Position numbers and translations under genes: made by a program. Below are positions 19,270-28,683 of a DNA stretch of 64,000 bases, one piece after another. The notes beneath the pieces were generated by a model that saw only the letters and a list, made by a program, of their open reading frames with translations, was not told where the DNA came from and made no database searches. Every line of letters starts with the position of its first letter. Position 1 is the first letter of the stretch. The stretch is from Beijerinckiaceae bacterium (GTDB taxonomy: Bacteria; Pseudomonadota; Alphaproteobacteria; Rhizobiales; Beijerinckiaceae), in contig CANJVX010000011.1 of NCBI GenBank assembly GCA_947478405.1, positions 1 through 64,000 on the forward strand. Reading direction: 5' to 3'.

Positions 19270-19345
19270 TGGCTCCCCGAGCAGGGCTCGAACCTGCGAC
19301 AATTCGATTAACAGTCGAATGCTCTACCAGCTGAGCTATCGGGGA
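19270..19345 (-). tRNA. tRNA-Asn (anticodon GTT)
   Basis: The minus strand gives TCCCCGATAGCTCAGCTGG..., folding into a full cloverleaf with acceptor stem TCCCCGA/TCGGGGA and anticodon loop CTGTTAA (GTT). The T-loop is GCAGGTTCGAGCCCTGC and the CCA end is encoded. Length 76. Confidence 0.97.
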
Positions 19346-19536
19346 CCGTGTCGCGCTGCGACGGGGTGGCGTATAGCAAGCGGGTCCGGCTTTGCAAAGC
19401 GCAAAAAGCTCAAGAGGTCGACTTTCTGGGAACACAGGATAAATTTCGCCGTGTCGGACGGCTATGTCCTTGCCGCAATCCCCTGCCCTTGCTAAGACCC
19501 CCCGAGCCTGCGGCACTCCCCGCAGGCATAGCTTGA

Positions 19537-19610
19537 GGCCTCGTGGCGGAGTGGCTACGCAGAGGACTGCAAATCCTTGCACCCCGGTTCGATTCCGGGC
19601 GAGGCCTCCA
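19537..19610 (+). tRNA. tRNA-Cys (anticodon GCA)
   Basis: GGCCTCGTGGCGGAGTGGCT... folds with acceptor stem GGCCTCG/CGAGGCC, anticodon loop CTGCAAA (GCA), T-arm CCCGGTTCGATTCCGGG and encoded CCA. Length 74. A GCCTGCG/CGCAGGC hairpin (19506-19527) lies just upstream. Confidence 0.97.
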
Positions 19611-19750
19611 ATTCTCCTCCCAGCGCATGCAATCGTAACAGCCGCCACATCTTAACCATGGCCGCCCGAAGACCGCCCAACGGCACTGACTCAATCCACC
19701 GGTGCTTCCCAAACGTAGCTCTGAGGACCACCGAGGACAAAAGCTTCAGA

Positions 19751-21223
19751 ATGCCGCCGATCCCTTCCCGTCCCGCCATCGTCTGGTTCCGAGACGACCT
19801 GCGCCTATCCGACCATCCCGCTCTGCAGGCTGCCCGAGAAAGCGCCAGCCCCCTCATCTGCATCTATATTCTGGACGAGGAGAGCCCCGGCATCCGTTCC
19901 TTGGGCGGCGCTTCGCACTGGTGGCTGTACCAGTCACTCAACTCCCTCTCGGCCGCGCTGGAGAAGACCGGCGCCCGGCTTGACATCCTGAAAGGGGCAG
20001 CCAAGCCTATCGTGACCGATCTGGCGCGCGCCGCCGATGCCAGCGCCATTTATTGGACACGTCGCTATGGCCAAGCCGAAATTGCTGTGGATCGCGAAAT
20101 CAAGGCGGCCCTGTCGGACGACGGCCTGACTGTCAAAAGTTTCAACGGCCAACTTTTGCACGAGCCCTGGGATGTGCAGACCAAGGGCGGTGATTTCTTC
20201 AAAGTCTATTCGCCTTTCTGGCGCGCAGCTCTGGCAAAGGGCGAGCCCGATGGCCCGCTACCACGCCCGACAAAGCTGAAAAGCGCCAACTGGCCGGCCA
20301 AGGCCCCAAAACGCGTCGCCCTCGACAGGCTTGGCCTCCTGCCCAAAAAACCTGATTGGACGGGCGGCCTGCGCGACACATGGAACCCGGGTGAAAAAGG
20401 TGCGCAGGAACGACTGTCCTCCTTTCTCGAAACACGCGCCAAAAATTATGCGACCCTGCGTGATCGACCCGATCAACCCGGCACATCCAATCTCTCGCCG
20501 CACTTGCGCTTTGGTGAAATCTCACCCCGTCAGGTCTGGCATGCCACACGCCATGCGCAGGCCTCAGGTGGCGTGCCCGCACGCGATGCCGACAAATTTC
20601 TGGCCGAAATAGGCTGGCGCGAATTTGCCTATCACCTGCTCTATCATTTTCCGGACTTGGGCACGAAAAACTTCCAAGCAAAGTTCAATGCCTTCCCCTG
20701 GAACGATCTAAAATCTACTGAGCTAAAAGCCTGGCAGCGCGGGCAGACAGGCTATCCGATTGTCGACGCCGGCATGCGCGAACTCTGGCACACCGGCACG
20801 ATGCACAATCGCGTGCGCATGATTGCCGCCTCGTTCCTTGTGAAAGATTTGCTCGGCGATTGGCGTCTGGGCGAAGACTGGTTTTGGGATACACTCTGCG
20901 ATGCATGCCCCGCTAATAATACGGCGAGCTGGCAATGGGTGGCGGGATCGGGTGCGGATGCAGCGCCCTATTTCCGCATTTTCAATCCCACATTGCAGTC
21001 CCAAAAATTCGATCCTGACGCTGCTTATGTGCGCCGCTGGGTACCCGAACTGGCAAAGCTGCCGGACAACTGGATTCACGAACCTTGGAACGCGCCTGAT
21101 CCCGCGCTAAAAAGCGTAGGTATTGTTCTGGGCAAAACCTATCCCAAGCCGATGGTCGATCATGCGCGCGCACGCGACCGTGCACTTGCCGCCCTCGCTT
21201 CCACCAAAACAGATATGGCCTGA
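19751..21223 (+). CDS. phrB: Deoxyribodipyrimidine photolyase (class I)
   Basis: Light-driven DNA repair enzyme of 490 residues that splits UV-induced pyrimidine dimers using FADH. The N-terminal antenna domain is recognisable in IVWFRDDLRLSDHPAL. The FAD-binding domain shows TGYPIVDAGMRELWHTG, MHNRVRMIAASFLVKDLLGDW and ACPANNTASWQWVAGSGAD. The ATG at 19751 is chosen because longer starts run into tRNA-Cys. It is followed at once by the FAD oxidoreductase gene, so it leads a stress/lipid operon. In several alphaproteobacteria photolyase genes belong to the RpoE-ChrR singlet-oxygen regulon. Confidence 0.95.
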   Translation: MPPIPSRPAIVWFRDDLRLSDHPALQAARESASPLICIYILDEESPGIRSLGGASHWWLYQSLNSLSAALEKTGARLDILKGAAKPIVTDLARAADASAIYWTRRYGQAEIAVDREIKAALSDDGLTVKSFNGQLLHEPWDVQTKGGDFFKVYSPFWRAALAKGEPDGPLPRPTKLKSANWPAKAPKRVALDRLGLLPKKPDWTGGLRDTWNPGEKGAQERLSSFLETRAKNYATLRDRPDQPGTSNLSPHLRFGEISPRQVWHATRHAQASGGVPARDADKFLAEIGWREFAYHLLYHFPDLGTKNFQAKFNAFPWNDLKSTELKAWQRGQTGYPIVDAGMRELWHTGTMHNRVRMIAASFLVKDLLGDWRLGEDWFWDTLCDACPANNTASWQWVAGSGADAAPYFRIFNPTLQSQKFDPDAAYVRRWVPELAKLPDNWIHEPWNAPDPALKSVGIVLGKTYPKPMVDHARARDRALAALASTKTDMA

Positions 21224-21224
21224 T

Positions 21225-22577
21225 ATGAAAATCGCCGTCGTCGGCACAGGAATTACCGGACATGCGGCAGCCCTTGCGCTGTCGCAACACGCCCATGGCC
21301 ATGACATCGTGCTCTATGAGCGCGAGCCTCGGGCGGGCGGCCACACGGCCACAGTCGATATTGATTATGACGGCACGCCGATTGCGGTTGATACCGGCTT
21401 TATCGTCTACAACGAGAAGAATTATCCCAATCTCACAGCTATGTTCGATTACCTGCAGGTTCAGACGCAGGCGTCTGACATGAGCTTCTCGGTGTCAGCA
21501 GATCGCGGCGCCTTTGAATGGTGCGGACAGGATGGCAAAGGCGTTTTGAACGCCCTCTTTGCCCAGCGCAGAAACATCTTATCCCCATCATTCCTCGCGC
21601 TGCTCCTTGAAATCGGCCGGTTCCAGAAACAGGCCATCAGAGACGCGCGCGCCGCCGCGATTGGCGAGGGCACGCTGGCAGATTACCTCGCACGAAATGG
21701 GTATTCGCAGCGCCTGTGCCGCGATTATCTCGTGCCGATGGGGGCGGCCATCTGGTCGACAAGCCCGCGCGAAATGTTGAATTTCCCGGCTACCAGCTTC
21801 ATCGAGTTTTTCGACAATCATTGCTTATTGCAGTGGGACCGACCGCGCTGGCGAACCGTTACCGGCGGTAGTCGCGAATATTTGCGCAAATTAGCCAATC
21901 TCTTTGGCGATCGATTGCGCCTCAATTGCGCAGCGATTGCAATCACGCGCGATGCCGACCGTGTGACGATCCGCGATGCGCGCGGCGGTGTTGAGACATT
22001 TGATCAAGTCATCATGACCGCACATGCACCCGATTCCCTGAAAGCGTTGGCTGATTCGGACGAAAACGAGCAAGCCATTCTGGGCGCATGCCGCTATGCG
22101 CCCAATGATGTCTGGCTGCATCGCGACACTGCACTCATGCCAAAGCGCCAAGCGGCCTGGGCCGCATGGAATTTCCTGCGCGAAGGGAATGTGGATGACC
22201 GCGCCTGTGCCGTCACCTATTGGATGAACAAGCTGCAGGGCATTGATCCGGCCAAACCGCTGTTTGTCACGCTCAACCCGCCCTTTGCGCCCAAGCCCGA
22301 ACTCACCTTCGCTCAGTTCAATTATCAGCATCCGCAATTTGATACGGCCGCGCTTGCAGCACGCAAGCGCCTGAATGACATTCAGGGCGTACGCCGCACA
22401 TGGTTCGCGGGCGCTTGGACGGGTCATGGCTTCCATGAAGATGGATTGCTATCGGGCATTTCGGTGGCCGCACGCCTTGGCTGTCCGGCGCCTTGGGCCC
22501 ATATGCGCGAAACGGACCCCCTGCCGATTTCGACCCTGCCGGTCGAAGCCGACAAGAAAGTGGAACTCGTTTTATGA
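21225..22577 (+). CDS. FAD/NAD(P)-binding oxidoreductase, COG2907 type
   Basis: Flavin oxidoreductase of about 450 residues in the amine oxidase/desaturase superfamily. The N-terminal dinucleotide motif is KIAVVGTGITGHAAALALSQ. Further conserved blocks include PRAGGHTATVDIDYDG, VDTGFIVYNEKNYPNL and the C-terminal GAWTGHGFHEDGLLSG. COG2907 proteins are regularly found with DUF1365 and a Cfa-like methyltransferase, as here, and a role in fatty-acid modification is suspected from that context. The true start is the ATG at 21225, one base after the photolyase stop. The track extension is an artefact. The gene overlaps the next by 4 bases (ATGA). Confidence 0.9.
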   Translation: MKIAVVGTGITGHAAALALSQHAHGHDIVLYEREPRAGGHTATVDIDYDGTPIAVDTGFIVYNEKNYPNLTAMFDYLQVQTQASDMSFSVSADRGAFEWCGQDGKGVLNALFAQRRNILSPSFLALLLEIGRFQKQAIRDARAAAIGEGTLADYLARNGYSQRLCRDYLVPMGAAIWSTSPREMLNFPATSFIEFFDNHCLLQWDRPRWRTVTGGSREYLRKLANLFGDRLRLNCAAIAITRDADRVTIRDARGGVETFDQVIMTAHAPDSLKALADSDENEQAILGACRYAPNDVWLHRDTALMPKRQAAWAAWNFLREGNVDDRACAVTYWMNKLQGIDPAKPLFVTLNPPFAPKPELTFAQFNYQHPQFDTAALAARKRLNDIQGVRRTWFAGAWTGHGFHEDGLLSGISVAARLGCPAPWAHMRETDPLPISTLPVEADKKVELVL

Positions 22578-23404
22578 GCGAAACCCGCTTTATGCCGCCG
22601 GACTCCTGCCTTTCGATTTATCGCGGGCCGGTGATGCATGCGCGCATGAAGCCGGTGACGCATCGTTTCACCTATGACGTCTTCTCGACCCTGATTGATC
22701 TCGACCGGTTAACGGAGCTGAAGTCCCTCTCGCCGATCTTTTCAGTCGGGCGGTTCAATCTTCTGTCATTTTCGCCCGAAGATCATGGTCCGCGCGACGG
22801 GTCCGACCTGCGGGCCTATGTCGATGGGGCGTTGGGCAAGGCTGGGATTGAGATACCGGCCGGGCGGGTGCTGCTTTTGTGCTATCCGCGCGTATTGGGT
22901 TTCACCTTCAACCCGCTGTCGGTCTATTATTGTTACAATGCGCAAGGCGCGCTGGCCGCTCTGGTTTATGAGGTACGCAATACATTTGGCGAAGCCCATA
23001 CCTATGTCGCTCCGATCTCACCGGGCGAGGCCACGGGCCACGAAGTGCGCCAGGAACGCGACAAGATCTTCTACGTCTCGCCCTTCCTCGACATGTCGAT
23101 GCGCTATCATTTCCGCTTGCAACCCCCCGGCGAGACTCTGAAGCTGCGAATTCTGGAGACCGACGCACAGGGCCCGATCCTGGCGGCCACTTTTAATGGC
23201 ACACGCGAGGAGGCCAATACCGTCAGCCTGCTTGCGAACTTCTTGCATATCCCCCTGATGACCTTCAAGATTGTTGCAGCTATTCATTGGGAAGCGTTGC
23301 GCCTTTATATCAAAGGCCTGCGCATCCGCCCCCGCCCCGTCCCGCCAGCGCCGCTGAGCTATCGTGGACAAAACACCAACGCGCTTCCGGATGCACGCCC
23401 TTGA
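22574..23404 (+). CDS. DUF1365 domain-containing protein
   Basis: Protein of about 276 residues in the DUF1365 family, which has no established activity. Conserved pieces are IYRGPVMHARMKPVTHRFTY at the start, YPRVLGFTFNPLSVYYCYN in the middle (GFTFNPLSVYYCY is the family signature) and KIFYVSPFLDMSMRYHFRL. The start overlaps the preceding stop (ATGA), so translation is coupled. Its constant partners, COG2907 oxidoreductase and a Cfa-like methyltransferase, are both here, pointing to membrane fatty-acid modification. A part in furan fatty-acid formation is a reasonable inference, not shown. Confidence 0.88.
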   Translation: MSETRFMPPDSCLSIYRGPVMHARMKPVTHRFTYDVFSTLIDLDRLTELKSLSPIFSVGRFNLLSFSPEDHGPRDGSDLRAYVDGALGKAGIEIPAGRVLLLCYPRVLGFTFNPLSVYYCYNAQGALAALVYEVRNTFGEAHTYVAPISPGEATGHEVRQERDKIFYVSPFLDMSMRYHFRLQPPGETLKLRILETDAQGPILAATFNGTREEANTVSLLANFLHIPLMTFKIVAAIHWEALRLYIKGLRIRPRPVPPAPLSYRGQNTNALPDARP

Positions 23405-23409
23405 ACATC

Positions 23410-24657
23410 ATGACGAGCACCCAGTCCTTTCCGCATGATCATATCATCGTCACCAAGGACAACGTCGCCAGCCTCGCGCAGCCCTATCCTTTCGCAGTTC
23501 GTCGCGCGTTATCTTTTGCGCTCATGCTGGAGCGTGGCCGCCTTGATGTCCAAATGCCCGATGGCCGCACCCTCGTCTTCCAAGGCTCGGAGATTGGACC
23601 CAACGCGCAGATGATCGTGCATGATCTCGCCTTTGCCTCTTCGCTTGCTACTGCAGGTGAGGTCGGCATTGCAGAAGCCTTTCTGAAGGGCCATTGGGAG
23701 AGCCCCAATCTCACGCACTTTCTGGAATTGTTCTGCGTGAACCAACCCGTCATCCGTAAATTGCTCGAGGGAAAGCCGCTGGTTCGGCTCATCCAGCGCG
23801 TGATGCATTGGCGAAACCGCAACACCAAGTCCGGATCTTTGCGCAACATTCACGCGCATTACGATCTGGGGAATCAATTCTATTCCGCTTGGCTCGACGG
23901 CACGATGACCTATTCTTCCGCGCTGTTCACCGGTGCGGGACAAGACCTTGCTGAAGCGCAGCGTGAAAAATATGCCGCTCTTGCCCGCGATATTGATCTG
24001 CAGCCGGGCCAGCATGTTTTGGAAATCGGCTGCGGCTGGGGTGGCTTTGCTGAATATGCGGCGGGAGAAATCGGCGCGCGCGTGACTGGCCTGACAATCT
24101 CCAAAGAACAATTTGATTTCGCCACCGAGCGCATGCGCAAGGCGGGTCTGCAAGACCGCGTCGAAATCAAAATGCAAGATTATCGCGACGAAAAAGGCAC
24201 GTTTGATCGCATCGCCTCCATCGAAATGTTTGAGGCGGTGGGAGAAGAATATTGGCCGATTTATTTCCGGCAATTGCGCGATCGCCTGAAAACAGGCGGC
24301 AAAGCGGGATTGCAGGTCATCACCATTCAGGATGAAATCTTCCCCCATTATCGGGGCGAGATCGATTTCATTCGCCGCTATATTTTCCCCGGTGGCATGT
24401 TGCCTACGCCCACCATCATGCGCGACATGGGCGACCGGCACGGGCTTGCGCTGTCTGCCGAACGCATTTTCGGCCTTGATTATGCGCAGACGCTTGCTCA
24501 TTGGCGCGACAGCTTCCGTAAGGCCTGGCCGCAACTGACTCCACTCGGTTTTGATGAGCATTTCCGTCGGATGTGGGAATATTACCTCGCCTATTGCGAA
24601 GCCGGTTTCCGCGCCGGCACCATCGACGTGCGGCAAATGGTTTTTGCAAAGGATTGA
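23410..24657 (+). CDS. Cyclopropane-fatty-acid-synthase-like phospholipid methyltransferase
   Basis: SAM-dependent enzyme of about 415 residues of the Cfa family, acting on unsaturated acyl chains of membrane phospholipids. Motif I is VLEIGCGWGGFAEYAAGEIG, and HAHYDLGNQFYSAWLDGTMTYS is the family signature. In E. coli Cfa the segments FEHVG and LLHTIG are conserved; here they read FEAVG and LQVITIQ, so the bicarbonate-contacting histidine appears to be missing. That pattern fits a methylase making branched acyl chains (UfaM-like, furan fatty acid route) better than a classic cyclopropane synthase. The start ATG at 23410 is 6 bases after the DUF1365 stop. Name left open for this reason. Confidence 0.88.
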   Translation: MTSTQSFPHDHIIVTKDNVASLAQPYPFAVRRALSFALMLERGRLDVQMPDGRTLVFQGSEIGPNAQMIVHDLAFASSLATAGEVGIAEAFLKGHWESPNLTHFLELFCVNQPVIRKLLEGKPLVRLIQRVMHWRNRNTKSGSLRNIHAHYDLGNQFYSAWLDGTMTYSSALFTGAGQDLAEAQREKYAALARDIDLQPGQHVLEIGCGWGGFAEYAAGEIGARVTGLTISKEQFDFATERMRKAGLQDRVEIKMQDYRDEKGTFDRIASIEMFEAVGEEYWPIYFRQLRDRLKTGGKAGLQVITIQDEIFPHYRGEIDFIRRYIFPGGMLPTPTIMRDMGDRHGLALSAERIFGLDYAQTLAHWRDSFRKAWPQLTPLGFDEHFRRMWEYYLAYCEAGFRAGTIDVRQMVFAKD

Positions 24658-24658
24658 C

Positions 24659-25984
24659 ATGAGCAAGGCGACGCGCGCCACATTGGCAGCCTATGCATTG
24701 CCAGCGGTTCCGCTCGCCATTCTCACCTTGCCCCTCTATGTGCTCGTACCAGCATTCTATGCCCGCGAGCTAATGCTTCCTATTGCGGCCGTTGGCTCGG
24801 CGCTTCTCATCGTACGCATCATTGATGCACTGGCGGATCCGCTGGTCGGCCTCTTTGCTGATCGCTGGCGACCAGAGTTTGGCCGCCGCCGTGCTTGGCT
24901 GGCGCGTGCCTGCATTCCCACCGCGCTTTGCACTTACATGCTCTTTGTTCCCGCCGCGGGTGCGGGTCTCGCCTATCTGATCTTCTGGGGCATGGCCCTA
25001 TCAGTGGCCTGGACTGCAGCCATTGTCCCCTACACAGCTTGGGGAGCAGAACTCCTTCCCGATTATGCCGGACGCGTGCGCATTGCGGCTTGGCGCGAAA
25101 TGTTCGCGCTCATCGGCACATTGCTCGCCCTCTTCGCCCAAGCGCTCGTGCCGATGGCTGGATATACGGGCGATGGGGCTGTGCTGATGGCGCTCGCCCT
25201 GTTCATCCTGATCGCTTTGCCGCTGACGAGCCTCATCTGCGTGCGCTTTGTGGATGAGCCTGTTGACCTGTCACAGCGCAGCCTCTCCATGTTCGAGGGC
25301 TTGGGCTTCATGCGCGCCAACAAACCCTTCTTGCAGCTCATCGCGGCCTTTCTCGTCAATGGCTTTGCCAATGGCCTGCCAGCGACGCTTTTTCTGTTTT
25401 ATGTCGGCGAAAAATTGAGTGCGCCTGATGCCGCGGGCCCGCTTCTCGTTCTCTATTTTCTCTGCGGTATTGCCGGGGTGCCCTTCTGGCTCTGGCTCGC
25501 GCGCCGCACCTCTAAACATGTCGCGTGGTGCATGGGCATGTTGCTCGCATGTGTGTGTTTTACACCCGCCCCTTTTCTGGGCGAAGGCGATCTAACCCTC
25601 TTCGCAGGCATATGCATCGGCACTGGATTGGCGCTTGGAGCCGATCTCGTTCTGCCGCCCGCTATTCAGGCGGATGCGATTGATGTCGACACTGCTGCAT
25701 CAGGCGAACAACGCTCAGGCCTCTACTTCGCCGCCTGGGGGCTCGCCACCAAACTCGCTTTGGCTTTGGCGGTGGGGTTTGCTTTTCCAGTGCTGGGCGC
25801 AGCCGGCTTTGATCCGGCGGCAAATCTACGCGAAAGCAGCGGGCTAGCCATGCTGGGCTTTCTTTATGCGGGCCTGCCCATATTTTTGAAACTCATCGCC
25901 ATCGCGCTGATGTGGAGATTTCCCCTGGACCGCGATACGCAGACACAATTGCGCGCGACCATTGAAGGCAATAGAGCACGCTGA
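24659..25984 (+). CDS. MFS transporter, GPH (MelB-like) family
   Basis: Twelve-helix inner-membrane transporter of about 441 residues. The loop between helices 2 and 3, DALADPLVGLFADRWRPEFGRRRAWL, carries the DP-x3-G-x3-DR-(x)-GRRR signature of glycoside-pentoside-hexuronide symporters. The start is the ATG at 24659, one base after the Cfa-like stop. Its place at the end of the photolyase/lipid operon, and the similar transporter in the Rhodobacter RpoE regulon as I recall it, suggest that it moves a lipid-related or stress-related compound rather than a sugar. The substrate is unknown. Confidence 0.88.
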   Translation: MSKATRATLAAYALPAVPLAILTLPLYVLVPAFYARELMLPIAAVGSALLIVRIIDALADPLVGLFADRWRPEFGRRRAWLARACIPTALCTYMLFVPAAGAGLAYLIFWGMALSVAWTAAIVPYTAWGAELLPDYAGRVRIAAWREMFALIGTLLALFAQALVPMAGYTGDGAVLMALALFILIALPLTSLICVRFVDEPVDLSQRSLSMFEGLGFMRANKPFLQLIAAFLVNGFANGLPATLFLFYVGEKLSAPDAAGPLLVLYFLCGIAGVPFWLWLARRTSKHVAWCMGMLLACVCFTPAPFLGEGDLTLFAGICIGTGLALGADLVLPPAIQADAIDVDTAASGEQRSGLYFAAWGLATKLALALAVGFAFPVLGAAGFDPAANLRESSGLAMLGFLYAGLPIFLKLIAIALMWRFPLDRDTQTQLRATIEGNRAR

Positions 25985-25990
25985 AACACT

Positions 25991-26731
25991 TTACCGCCCG
26001 GTCGTTTTTCCCACCAGCCAAAAATAGGCTGAATAAGGCAGCATGTTGATGGCTTTCAGCATCCACGCCATGCGCTTGGGGAAAGCGATCTCAAAACCGC
26101 CATGTTCAAAACCGCGCAAGATACGGCGCCCTGCTTCCTCGACCGAAATCAGGAACGGCATAGGGAAATCATTCTTGTCGGTGAGCGGTGTTTTTACAAA
26201 GCCCGGGCAGACGATCTGGATAGTTATGCCCAATCTGTCGAGATCAAACTTCAAAGACTCACACATCGTAATCAATGCAGCTTTGGATGATGAATAAGCG
26301 ATGGAGCGAGGCAATCCGCCATAGCCTGCAACAGATGAATTGACCGCAATCTGTCCACGTCCACGCGCCTTCATCTTGCGCACCAATGGGCCAATCAGAT
26401 TAACAGTACCATCAACGTTGACAGCAAATGTTTTGCGAAACCCATCTCCGCCCAGATCGTCATCGCTGTCAGGAAAAAATGTGCCGACATTGAGAAAGGC
26501 AAGCGCAATCGGTCCAAGCTCAGCTTCAACCTCATCAACCAGCGCCTGCATGGCTGCGCGGTCTGTCACATCGCCGGGCTTGGGAATGATGATGCCGCCT
26601 GCAGAAGCCAGCTCATCAGCAAGTCTGGTGAGATCTTCCACGCGCCGCGCAACAGCGACCACGCGAAATCCTTTCACAGCAAGCTGGCGCGCGACTTCCG
26701 CACCAATGCCCGAACTGGCCCCTGTTACCAA
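25991..26731 (-). CDS. SDR-family oxidoreductase, start uncertain
   Basis: Short-chain dehydrogenase of about 246 residues or more. The cofactor motif is VTGASSGIGAEVARQLA. The catalytic set is Asn (FLNVG region), Ser (VNSSVAGYGG) and Tyr-x3-Lys in SIAYSSSKAALITM. The C-terminus has WMLKAINMLPYSAYFWL. The track start is a TTG placed inside the first beta strand. In-frame sequence continues upstream (YRARASDGLALVTGASS) to an ATT/CTG that overlaps the chrR stop, with no ATG or GTG, so the real start may be non-canonical and coupled to chrR. It is convergent with the MFS gene and probably co-transcribed with chrR. Confidence 0.85.
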   Translation of the reverse strand: MVTGASSGIGAEVARQLAVKGFRVVAVARRVEDLTRLADELASAGGIIIPKPGDVTDRAAMQALVDEVEAELGPIALAFLNVGTFFPDSDDDLGGDGFRKTFAVNVDGTVNLIGPLVRKMKARGRGQIAVNSSVAGYGGLPRSIAYSSSKAALITMCESLKFDLDRLGITIQIVCPGFVKTPLTDKNDFPMPFLISVEEAGRRILRGFEHGGFEIAFPKRMAWMLKAINMLPYSAYFWLVGKTTGR

Positions 26732-26766: not shown

Positions 26767-27483
26767 TCAGCGCCGATCTCCGAACAGATGCTGCAGCAAC
26801 CGCCCGAACGGGCCGGTCAGATGGAGCGGCGCATCAGTCACCGCAAAGCAAAGGCAATCTTCACCTGCGTCCGAAACCGGCTTGTGATCGAGATCGGCTT
26901 CAGCGACAGCAATGTCGCCGCGCCCGTAATGGCCGGTCACGTCTGAAAACCCGCCCTGCAGAACGAGTGTCACTTCAGACCCTTCATGCGTATGAGAGGG
27001 CATGCGACGACCTGCGCGCACCCAGAGCAGGCTCGCGTCGCCACGACCCTTGTCCTCGATGCGGAATTCTTTCACGCCCGGCAGTTTCGCGCGCCATTGG
27101 ATCGCGTTCAGATCCTGCCCCAGATAATGGCGCAAGGGCGAGGGCAAAATATCTGATCCAGCCACGAGTGGTGCAGGACGACGCCGGGCCGGCTCGGTCG
27201 CAAAAATAGCGGCCAGTCTCTCATCACGATGTGAAAGGGGCTCGGGGACCCCGCGGTGAAGCTCCTCGGCCGCCAGATCTTCCATCGCCGCCACAAAACG
27301 ACGCGACTGAGGCTTCAGCACCAGATGGGAGGCAACAAGTGCGTGAAGGCTCGGATCGAGCGAACCAGCTCCGTAGGCCGCCAAAAGTACATCGACGGCT
27401 TCACCCTGAGCCTCGGAACCACTGGTCTCACGTTTCAAATCAAGCCCCTGCCCATCTCGTGCCCGTCTGCTATAAGCAGTCAA
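26767..27483 (-). CDS. ChrR-like cupin anti-sigma factor with altered zinc motif
   Basis: Protein of 238 residues with the two-domain layout of ChrR, which binds and inhibits the ECF sigma factor RpoE until singlet oxygen appears. The N-terminal helical domain has LLAAYGAGSLDPSLHALVASHLVL. The C-terminal cupin has the metal ligands in RMPSHTHEGSEVTLVLQGGF and DLDHKPV. In ChrR the N-terminal zinc site uses His-x3-Cys-x2-Cys; here this reads HLVLKPQS, so both cysteines are absent, as is the early histidine. It uses a TTG start with a strong GGAGG 8 bases upstream. No sigma gene is adjacent. It may be an orphan or modified regulator. Confidence 0.8.
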   Translation of the reverse strand: MTAYSRRARDGQGLDLKRETSGSEAQGEAVDVLLAAYGAGSLDPSLHALVASHLVLKPQSRRFVAAMEDLAAEELHRGVPEPLSHRDERLAAIFATEPARRRPAPLVAGSDILPSPLRHYLGQDLNAIQWRAKLPGVKEFRIEDKGRGDASLLWVRAGRRMPSHTHEGSEVTLVLQGGFSDVTGHYGRGDIAVAEADLDHKPVSDAGEDCLCFAVTDAPLHLTGPFGRLLQHLFGDRR

Positions 27484-27543: not shown

Positions 27544-27573
27544 CGGTTACGCGCCATTTTACAAAACGGATCA
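27544..27573 (-). promoter_or_regulatory. Candidate RpoE/ECF11-type promoter for chrR-SDR
   Basis: The minus strand reads TGATCC, an 18-base spacer, then TAACCG, ending about 60 bases before the chrR start. TGATCC with a TAA-type -10 element is the known pattern of promoters used by RpoE of the ChrR-controlled group. It suggests that the operon is switched on by such a sigma factor encoded elsewhere. No matching site was found before the photolyase gene. Confidence 0.5.
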
Positions 27574-27651: not shown

Positions 27652-28683
27652 ATGACGACCGCTCCAGACGTCCTTGCTGCCATCGGCGACACGCCCCTGA
27701 TCAAGTTGCGCTATGCCTCGGAGGCAACCGGCTGCACGATTTTGGGCAAGGCAGAATTCATGAACCCCGGCGGATCCGTCAAGGATCGCGCGGCGCTCGC
27801 CATTGTGAAGGATGCCATCGGCCGGAGGCTACTCAATCCAGGTGGACTGATTGTCGAGGGCACGGCTGGCAATACCGGCATCGGCCTCGCAATGGTCGCC
27901 AATGCGCTCGGCTTCAAGACCGTCATCGTTATCCCAGATACGCAGTCGCAAGAAAAAAAAGACATGCTTCGCCTTCAAGGCGCCGAGCTGATCGAAGTCC
28001 CGGCTGTGCCTTATGCCAATCCGAATAATTACGTGAAAGTGTCCGGACGTCTCGCCGCACGCTTGGCCAAAGAACATGCGCAAGGCGCAATCTGGGCCAA
28101 TCAATTCGACAATATCGCCAATCGTCGTGGTCATTACGAAACCACTGGGCCGGAAATTTTTACCCAGACCGATGGTAAGGTCGACGGCTTTACTTGCGCA
28201 GTCGGCACGGGCGGGACTTTGGCTGGTGTGGGCATGGCGTTGAAAGAGCGCAACAAGAACATCAAGATTGCGATCAGCGATCCTATGGGGGCCGCACTCT
28301 ATCATTTTTATGCGCATGGTTCCCTGAAAGCCGAAGGCTCTTCCATTACCGAAGGAATTGGACAGGGCCGCATCACCGCCAATCTCGAAGATGCACCCAT
28401 CGATATGGCGTTTCAGATTAGCGATGAAGACGCCTTGCCGATCCTCTTCGATCTTGCCGAACAGGAAGGCATGTTGCTTGGCGGCTCCGCGGCCATCAAC
28501 ATTGCTGGCGCGATGCGACTGGCCAAAGAGATGGGGCCCGGTCATACGATCGTGACCATCTTGTGCGATGGTGGCGCCCGTTACGCATCAAAACTCTACA
28601 ATCCGGAATTTCTGCGCAGCAAAAATCTGCCTGTCCCAGGCTGGATGGCGCGCGCGTCGAGCATTCAGCCTGATTTCCAATAA
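27652..28683 (+). CDS. cysK: Cysteine synthase-like PLP enzyme
   Basis: PLP-dependent beta-replacement enzyme of 343 residues, expected to make cysteine from O-acetylserine and sulfide. The PLP lysine is in NPGGSVKDRAALAIV. The substrate loop reads EGTAGNTGIGLA where classic CysK has EPTSGNTG. The phosphate-binding loop is AVGTGGTLAGVG. The altered loop and extra C-terminal length mark a rhizobial-type variant, so substrate preference could differ from housekeeping CysK. It is divergent from chrR and is followed 12 bases later by the sulfurtransferase gene, consistent with a sulfur metabolism pair. Confidence 0.88.
   Translation: MTTAPDVLAAIGDTPLIKLRYASEATGCTILGKAEFMNPGGSVKDRAALAIVKDAIGRRLLNPGGLIVEGTAGNTGIGLAMVANALGFKTVIVIPDTQSQEKKDMLRLQGAELIEVPAVPYANPNNYVKVSGRLAARLAKEHAQGAIWANQFDNIANRRGHYETTGPEIFTQTDGKVDGFTCAVGTGGTLAGVGMALKERNKNIKIAISDPMGAALYHFYAHGSLKAEGSSITEGIGQGRITANLEDAPIDMAFQISDEDALPILFDLAEQEGMLLGGSAAINIAGAMRLAKEMGPGHTIVTILCDGGARYASKLYNPEFLRSKNLPVPGWMARASSIQPDFQ

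Follow-up and report, generated by a model that had tools for sequence, protein, structure and literature searches.

A ChrR-like protein without the N-terminal zinc site, encoded apart from rpoE and predicted to act as a zinc-free anti-sigma factor

I analysed a window of 64,000 nucleotides from the genome of a Beijerinckiaceae bacterium, which includes a chrR-like gene on the reverse strand (Table 1). The longest open reading frame of this gene spans positions 26767-27483 (-) and encodes 238 amino acids; translation probably starts at TTG 27438 and not at TTG 27483, since relatives have a common start at the former. The product matches the TIGR02451 family (anti_sig_ChrR) with 163.8 bits, above the cut-off of 124.5, over model positions 5-214 of 216. 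The match covers both domains at full length, and profile and fold both place the protein in the ChrR family, in agreement with an earlier, sequence-only reading of this frame as a ChrR-like regulator. Against the ChrR equivalog NF051881 it scores 115.6 bits, below the cut-off of 300. The closest relative of solved structure is Rhodobacter sphaeroides ChrR (2z2s_B, E 2.1e-38), an ECF11 anti-sigma factor, and the predicted function is the inhibition of an ECF11 sigma factor.

A short-chain dehydrogenase (SDR) gene lies 35 bp downstream, is a conserved neighbour, and likely shares an operon with the chrR-like gene. The whole arrangement, comprising the SDR, MFS_2, CMAS-type methyltransferase, DUF1365, flavin amine oxidase and phrA genes, is conserved in relatives. 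In R. sphaeroides, ufaD and ufaO (RSP1091-1090) are located immediately upstream of rpoE-chrR, and the breakdown of ChrR under singlet oxygen requires them (PMC3818230, PMC7074977, PMC7380195); R. palustris RPA2571-2569 shows the same order, ufaD-ufaO-ufaM (PMC7380195). The ufaD, ufaO and ufaM genes of Rhodobacter serve in furan fatty acid synthesis and bring about the destruction of ChrR. From domain content and gene order, putative Ufa functions were assigned to the window genes. A cysK gene is divergent at 27652, and no sigma gene adjoins the chrR-like gene, as had been noted from the sequence; the usual adjacent ECF11 sigma gene, which is not part of the profile definition, is absent.

Table 1. 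Features of the chrR-like locus, in window coordinates.
Feature	Position	Strand	Evidence
DNA photolyase phrA	19577..21223	+	PF03441 7.5e-89, PF00875 2.5e-48
Flavin amine oxidase-like protein, UfaD (RSP1091)-like by position	21123..22577	+	PF01593 3.6e-21
DUF1365 protein, UfaO (RSP1090)-like by position	22493..23404	+	PF07103 4.4e-78; order as R. palustris RPA2571-2569 (PMC7380195)
UfaM-like / cyclopropane-fatty-acid-synthase (CMAS)-type methyltransferase	23287..24657	+	PF02353 5.4e-83
MFS_2 (sugar/cation symporter type) transporter	24551..25984	+	PF13347 8.8e-72
Short-chain dehydrogenase (SDR)	25991..26731	-	adh_short 3e-44
chrR-like gene, ChrR without zinc site	26767..27438	-	223 aa from likely TTG start; TIGR02451; AlphaFold2 match to 2q1z/2z2s
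Cupin-like (sensor) domain, H-x-H, E, H and C-x-C kept	26836..27114	-	Pfam Cupin_7 2.6e-11
Former zinc knuckle HLVLKPQS	27304..27327	-	H31 kept, C35 to K, C38 to S, by alignment
ECF11 (sigma-E) type promoter TGATCC-N18-TAAC upstream of chrR-like	27546..27573	-	motif match

Alignment to R. sphaeroides ChrR (2z2s_B) places K57 at C35, S60 at C38 and E28 at H6, while H31 is kept as H53, so that a single one of the four anti-sigma-domain zinc ligands is left. H31 is likewise all that remains of the zinc-binding anti-sigma (ZAS) site, H-x24-H-x3-C-x2-C, and on this alignment the protein is not filed under the ZAS subfamily. The cupin ligands H141/H143/E147/H177 are all present, as H164/H166/E170/H200, and so is the C187/C189 (C-x-C) pair. 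The sequence-only reading had reported the loss of both cysteines and of the early histidine alongside an intact cupin site (H-x-H, E, H), and the alignment agrees on each count; its description of HLVLKPQS is refined in one respect, as this stretch still holds the zinc ligand H31. A sequencing error, which that reading had named as a possible refutation, is excluded: the 17 relatives identified in genome contigs all share the cysteine loss, among them the isolates Roseibium polysiphoniae and Oricola nitratireducens, and so do 75 sampled loci.

These loci come from a census in which ChrR and RpoE were extracted from 119 genomes at family level and 150 at order level, and the ligands scored. 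A ChrR was counted as unlinked if no RpoE was present in the fetched flanks (mostly ∼3 kb, in some cases 1.5 kb). By this definition, 75 unlinked ChrRs are without both cysteines and 2 have both, and the two genomes with the latter also carry a cysteine-less copy. Two ChrRs each, one cysteine-less and one HHCC, occur in genomes G204 and G173 (loci L216 and L218); the HHCC copy there adjoins an SDR gene, with no RpoE found in its flanks. Beside RpoE, 57 ChrRs have both cysteines, 3 have one, and 10 were scored without (9 clearly, 1 with the site outside the match). Of the 85 cysteine-less proteins, 84 retain the cupin ligands H, H, E, H. In another genome with a lone RpoE, a highly diverged ChrR-like protein (L104 in G035) has lost the cupin metal ligands as well.

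Could the anti-sigma domain still bind metal, through H31 and non-cysteine ligands? H31 is indeed kept in 71 of the 75 unlinked cysteine-less proteins, yet S, R, K or N predominate at position 35 in this set, 64 of the 75 have N or S at position 38, and neither a conserved ligand at position 6 nor an alternative conserved ligand set was found among them. I therefore consider such a residual site very improbable.

A tree of ChrR built without the zinc-site columns groups 74 of the 75 unlinked cysteine-less proteins into one clade (SH-aLRT 99) spanning 16 families; the outlier is most likely the protein of G023, a contig-end fragment. Since the split members form one clade, the association between splitting and cysteine loss counts as a single event. 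The zinc site itself was lost more than once, because the linked cysteine-less proteins require about four changes on the tree. At least 9 genomes have a cysteine-less ChrR directly beside rpoE, and cysteine loss therefore does not dissolve the pair.

The sequence-only reading had called for a genome search for an ECF11-type rpoE, with or without its own chrR. Sigma-factor searches identified a single ECF11 RpoE gene, which stands alone on a different contig (G000:C8:61429-61998); among solved structures, its product matches R. sphaeroides RpoE best (2q1z_A, E 1.9e-45). No anti-sigma gene was found beside it on contig C8, and no other ChrR in the source genome (3.03 Mb, 95% complete; search at E 0.001). 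The suggestion that the chrR-like gene is a second, unlinked copy is thus not supported: although G173 and G204 illustrate that a cysteine-less ChrR can coexist with an HHCC one, the protein is the only ChrR of its genome and the RpoE stands alone. As the assembly is incomplete, a further copy could, with low probability, have escaped detection; I consider it highly unlikely that the gene is a degenerate duplicate accompanying a canonical rpoE-chrR operon at another site.

The surroundings of the lone rpoE (L038:4036-6255) are themselves conserved: in at least 25 of 45 loci it adjoins an IalB-like gene, usually in divergent orientation, and in close relatives a DUF1223 gene. A new anti-sigma gene at this locus was considered and rejected, the recurrent neighbour being the divergent IalB-like gene, whose product has a secreted look. 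A link to phototrophy was also rejected, as no photosynthetic reaction-centre gene was found in the source genome.

Nearly all genomes sampled from the split ChrR clade have a lone RpoE, and the RpoE tree divides in the same way as the ChrR tree. Lone RpoE loci were retrieved from 46 genomes, with no ChrR in any of the loci checked. RpoE occurs in 94 genomes of the order sample; 93 of these also have ChrR, one does not, and ChrR never occurs there without RpoE. No sampled genome holds both the linked and the split version, where ∼14 would be expected in the order sample (P 9e-10, a value that ignores relatedness). Such mutual exclusion is the pattern of interchangeable versions of one system.

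The promoter upstream of the chrR-like gene is the only exact TGATCC-N18-TAA match in the window and, by motif, places the gene in the ECF11 regulon. Using a leave-one-genome-out weight matrix, at a cut-off that 5% of random stretches exceed, ECF11 promoter sites were detected for 38 of 40 split chrR genes and 17 of 20 linked rpoE genes, but for only 1 of 42 split rpoE genes. Thus chrR remained an RpoE target after the split and rpoE did not, and the motifs suggest that the split circuit is one of negative feedback without rpoE autoactivation. It could be argued that the chrR-like protein regulates a different sigma factor, with the lone RpoE free or otherwise regulated, as a second ECF-type sigma gene (EcfG-type) is present in the genome. 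That gene, however, sits next to its own PhyR-type regulator, the presence of ChrR tracks that of ECF11 RpoE, and the chrR-like promoter is of the ECF11 type; I give this alternative very little weight.

A sigma-E promoter motif is also found upstream of an rpoH-type sigma gene in the source genome, which agrees with the Rhodobacter cascade from RpoE to RpoHII (PMC6852236). ECF11-type motifs lie directly upstream of two membrane-protein genes of the same genome, DUF2177 (L157:1056-1508) and DUF2269 (L147:1005-1493), which are candidate members of the RpoE regulon. Although RpoE acts directly on phrA in Rhodobacter, no good sigma-E site was found before the phrA-ufa operon of the source genome (window 19300-19800). 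A promoter of this type was rejected there, which counts against the explanation proposed below.

The AlphaFold2 model of the chrR-like protein consists of four helices followed by the cupin (mean pLDDT 77.8). In a Foldseek comparison it matches ChrR of the RpoE complex (2q1z) with E 8.6e-17, and the 2q1z/2z2s ChrR match extends over 187 columns. Column entropy of the anti-sigma domain is 1.72 in the split clade versus 1.85 in the HHCC set, and dN/dS between close relatives is ∼0.12-0.15 (the cupin is tighter, at 0.03-0.05), consistent with a domain under purifying selection. The residues aligned to R. sphaeroides positions 66, 70 and 73 are R, L and I in 0.88-0.99 of the split clade. The anti-sigma domains of ChrR and E. 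coli RseA have a common fold that is held by zinc or by protein packing (PMC6852236), and a zinc-free anti-sigma domain is plausible because either can hold it. RseA is a membrane protein without a cupin and shows no significant sequence similarity to the chrR-like protein, but its anti-sigma domain is likewise a helical bundle, one that works without zinc (PMC6852236).

The main evidence against a working zinc-free anti-sigma factor comes from R. sphaeroides, where ChrR requires zinc for inhibition (PMC6852236). With three of the four ligands gone, and with the gene unlinked and preceded by an RpoE promoter, the protein might instead be a stand-alone cupin effector, as had been suggested from the sequence: the anti-sigma domain would no longer bind RpoE, RpoE would be controlled otherwise, and the chrR-like gene would merely be an RpoE target. 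Yet the domain is conserved, including the three positions above, and is predicted to keep its four helices, the co-occurrence of ChrR with RpoE is nearly perfect, and no other candidate regulator stands at the lone rpoE locus, where the recurrent neighbour is the IalB-like gene. I regard this alternative as unlikely.

It is probable, in my assessment, that the chrR-like gene encodes a working anti-sigma factor that acts in trans on the lone RpoE through a zinc-free N-terminal domain and a metal-binding cupin sensor. From the observed sequence, predicted fold, clade, co-occurrence, promoter motifs and synteny, I infer RpoE binding, the absence of zinc, the signal and the proteolysis as follows. 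The N-terminal four-helix domain, kept stable by protein packing like that of E. coli RseA, would hold the organism's single ECF11 RpoE in trans, and the cupin would still bind metal and take in the stress signal. In Rhodobacter, cupin residues E147 and H177 are needed for release, and C187 and C189 are not (PMC6852236). Singlet oxygen would lead to destruction of ChrR that depends on the cupin and on furan fatty acids, and the freed RpoE would transcribe chrR-SDR, the rpoH gene and other targets; with a sigma-E promoter on chrR and none on rpoE, the circuit would give negative feedback without rpoE autoactivation. Among the three possibilities raised by the sequence-only reading, the sensing of singlet oxygen without anti-sigma-domain zinc is thus the best supported. 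For the broader proposal, of an order-wide lineage whose singlet-oxygen response has a zinc-free anti-sigma domain, senses via the cupin and furan-fatty-acid route only, and in which RpoE induces ChrR and not itself, I see an even chance.

Compared with R. sphaeroides ChrR, the protein has the same two-domain fold (here predicted), cupin metal ligands and C-x-C pair, together with an ECF11 sigma partner in the genome, an ECF11 promoter and a ufa-type neighbourhood. It differs in that H6, C35 and C38 are absent, the gene lies outside the rpoE operon, and its rpoE is without a sigma-E promoter. The operon-linked cysteine-less ChrRs (e.g., in G015, G039, G049, G109 and G177) also combine the loss of both cysteines with kept cupin ligands, and have S or A at position 38, but they are still beside rpoE and occupy separate tree branches, and so represent separate losses.

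A full-text search found no account of an unlinked or cysteine-less ChrR; an earlier mention elsewhere is possible, but this large branch, without the zinc site and away from rpoE, appears to be without description in the searchable literature. TIGR02451 labels these proteins as ordinary ChrR, and the split RpoEs would be classed as orphans by an analysis that seeks an anti-sigma gene solely next to the sigma gene. The role of the anti-sigma-domain zinc of ChrR in sensing singlet oxygen is under debate (PMC6432622), and becomes testable through this clade: dozens of species without the zinc site, but with the sigma factor, the cupin and the neighbourhood, constitute a natural experiment on the role of zinc in sensing and inhibition. 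These species also present a sigma/anti-sigma operon that has been split up, with changed feedback logic and in a form mutually exclusive with the canonical version. If the broader proposal is true, the zinc of the anti-sigma domain would not be the required singlet-oxygen sensor.
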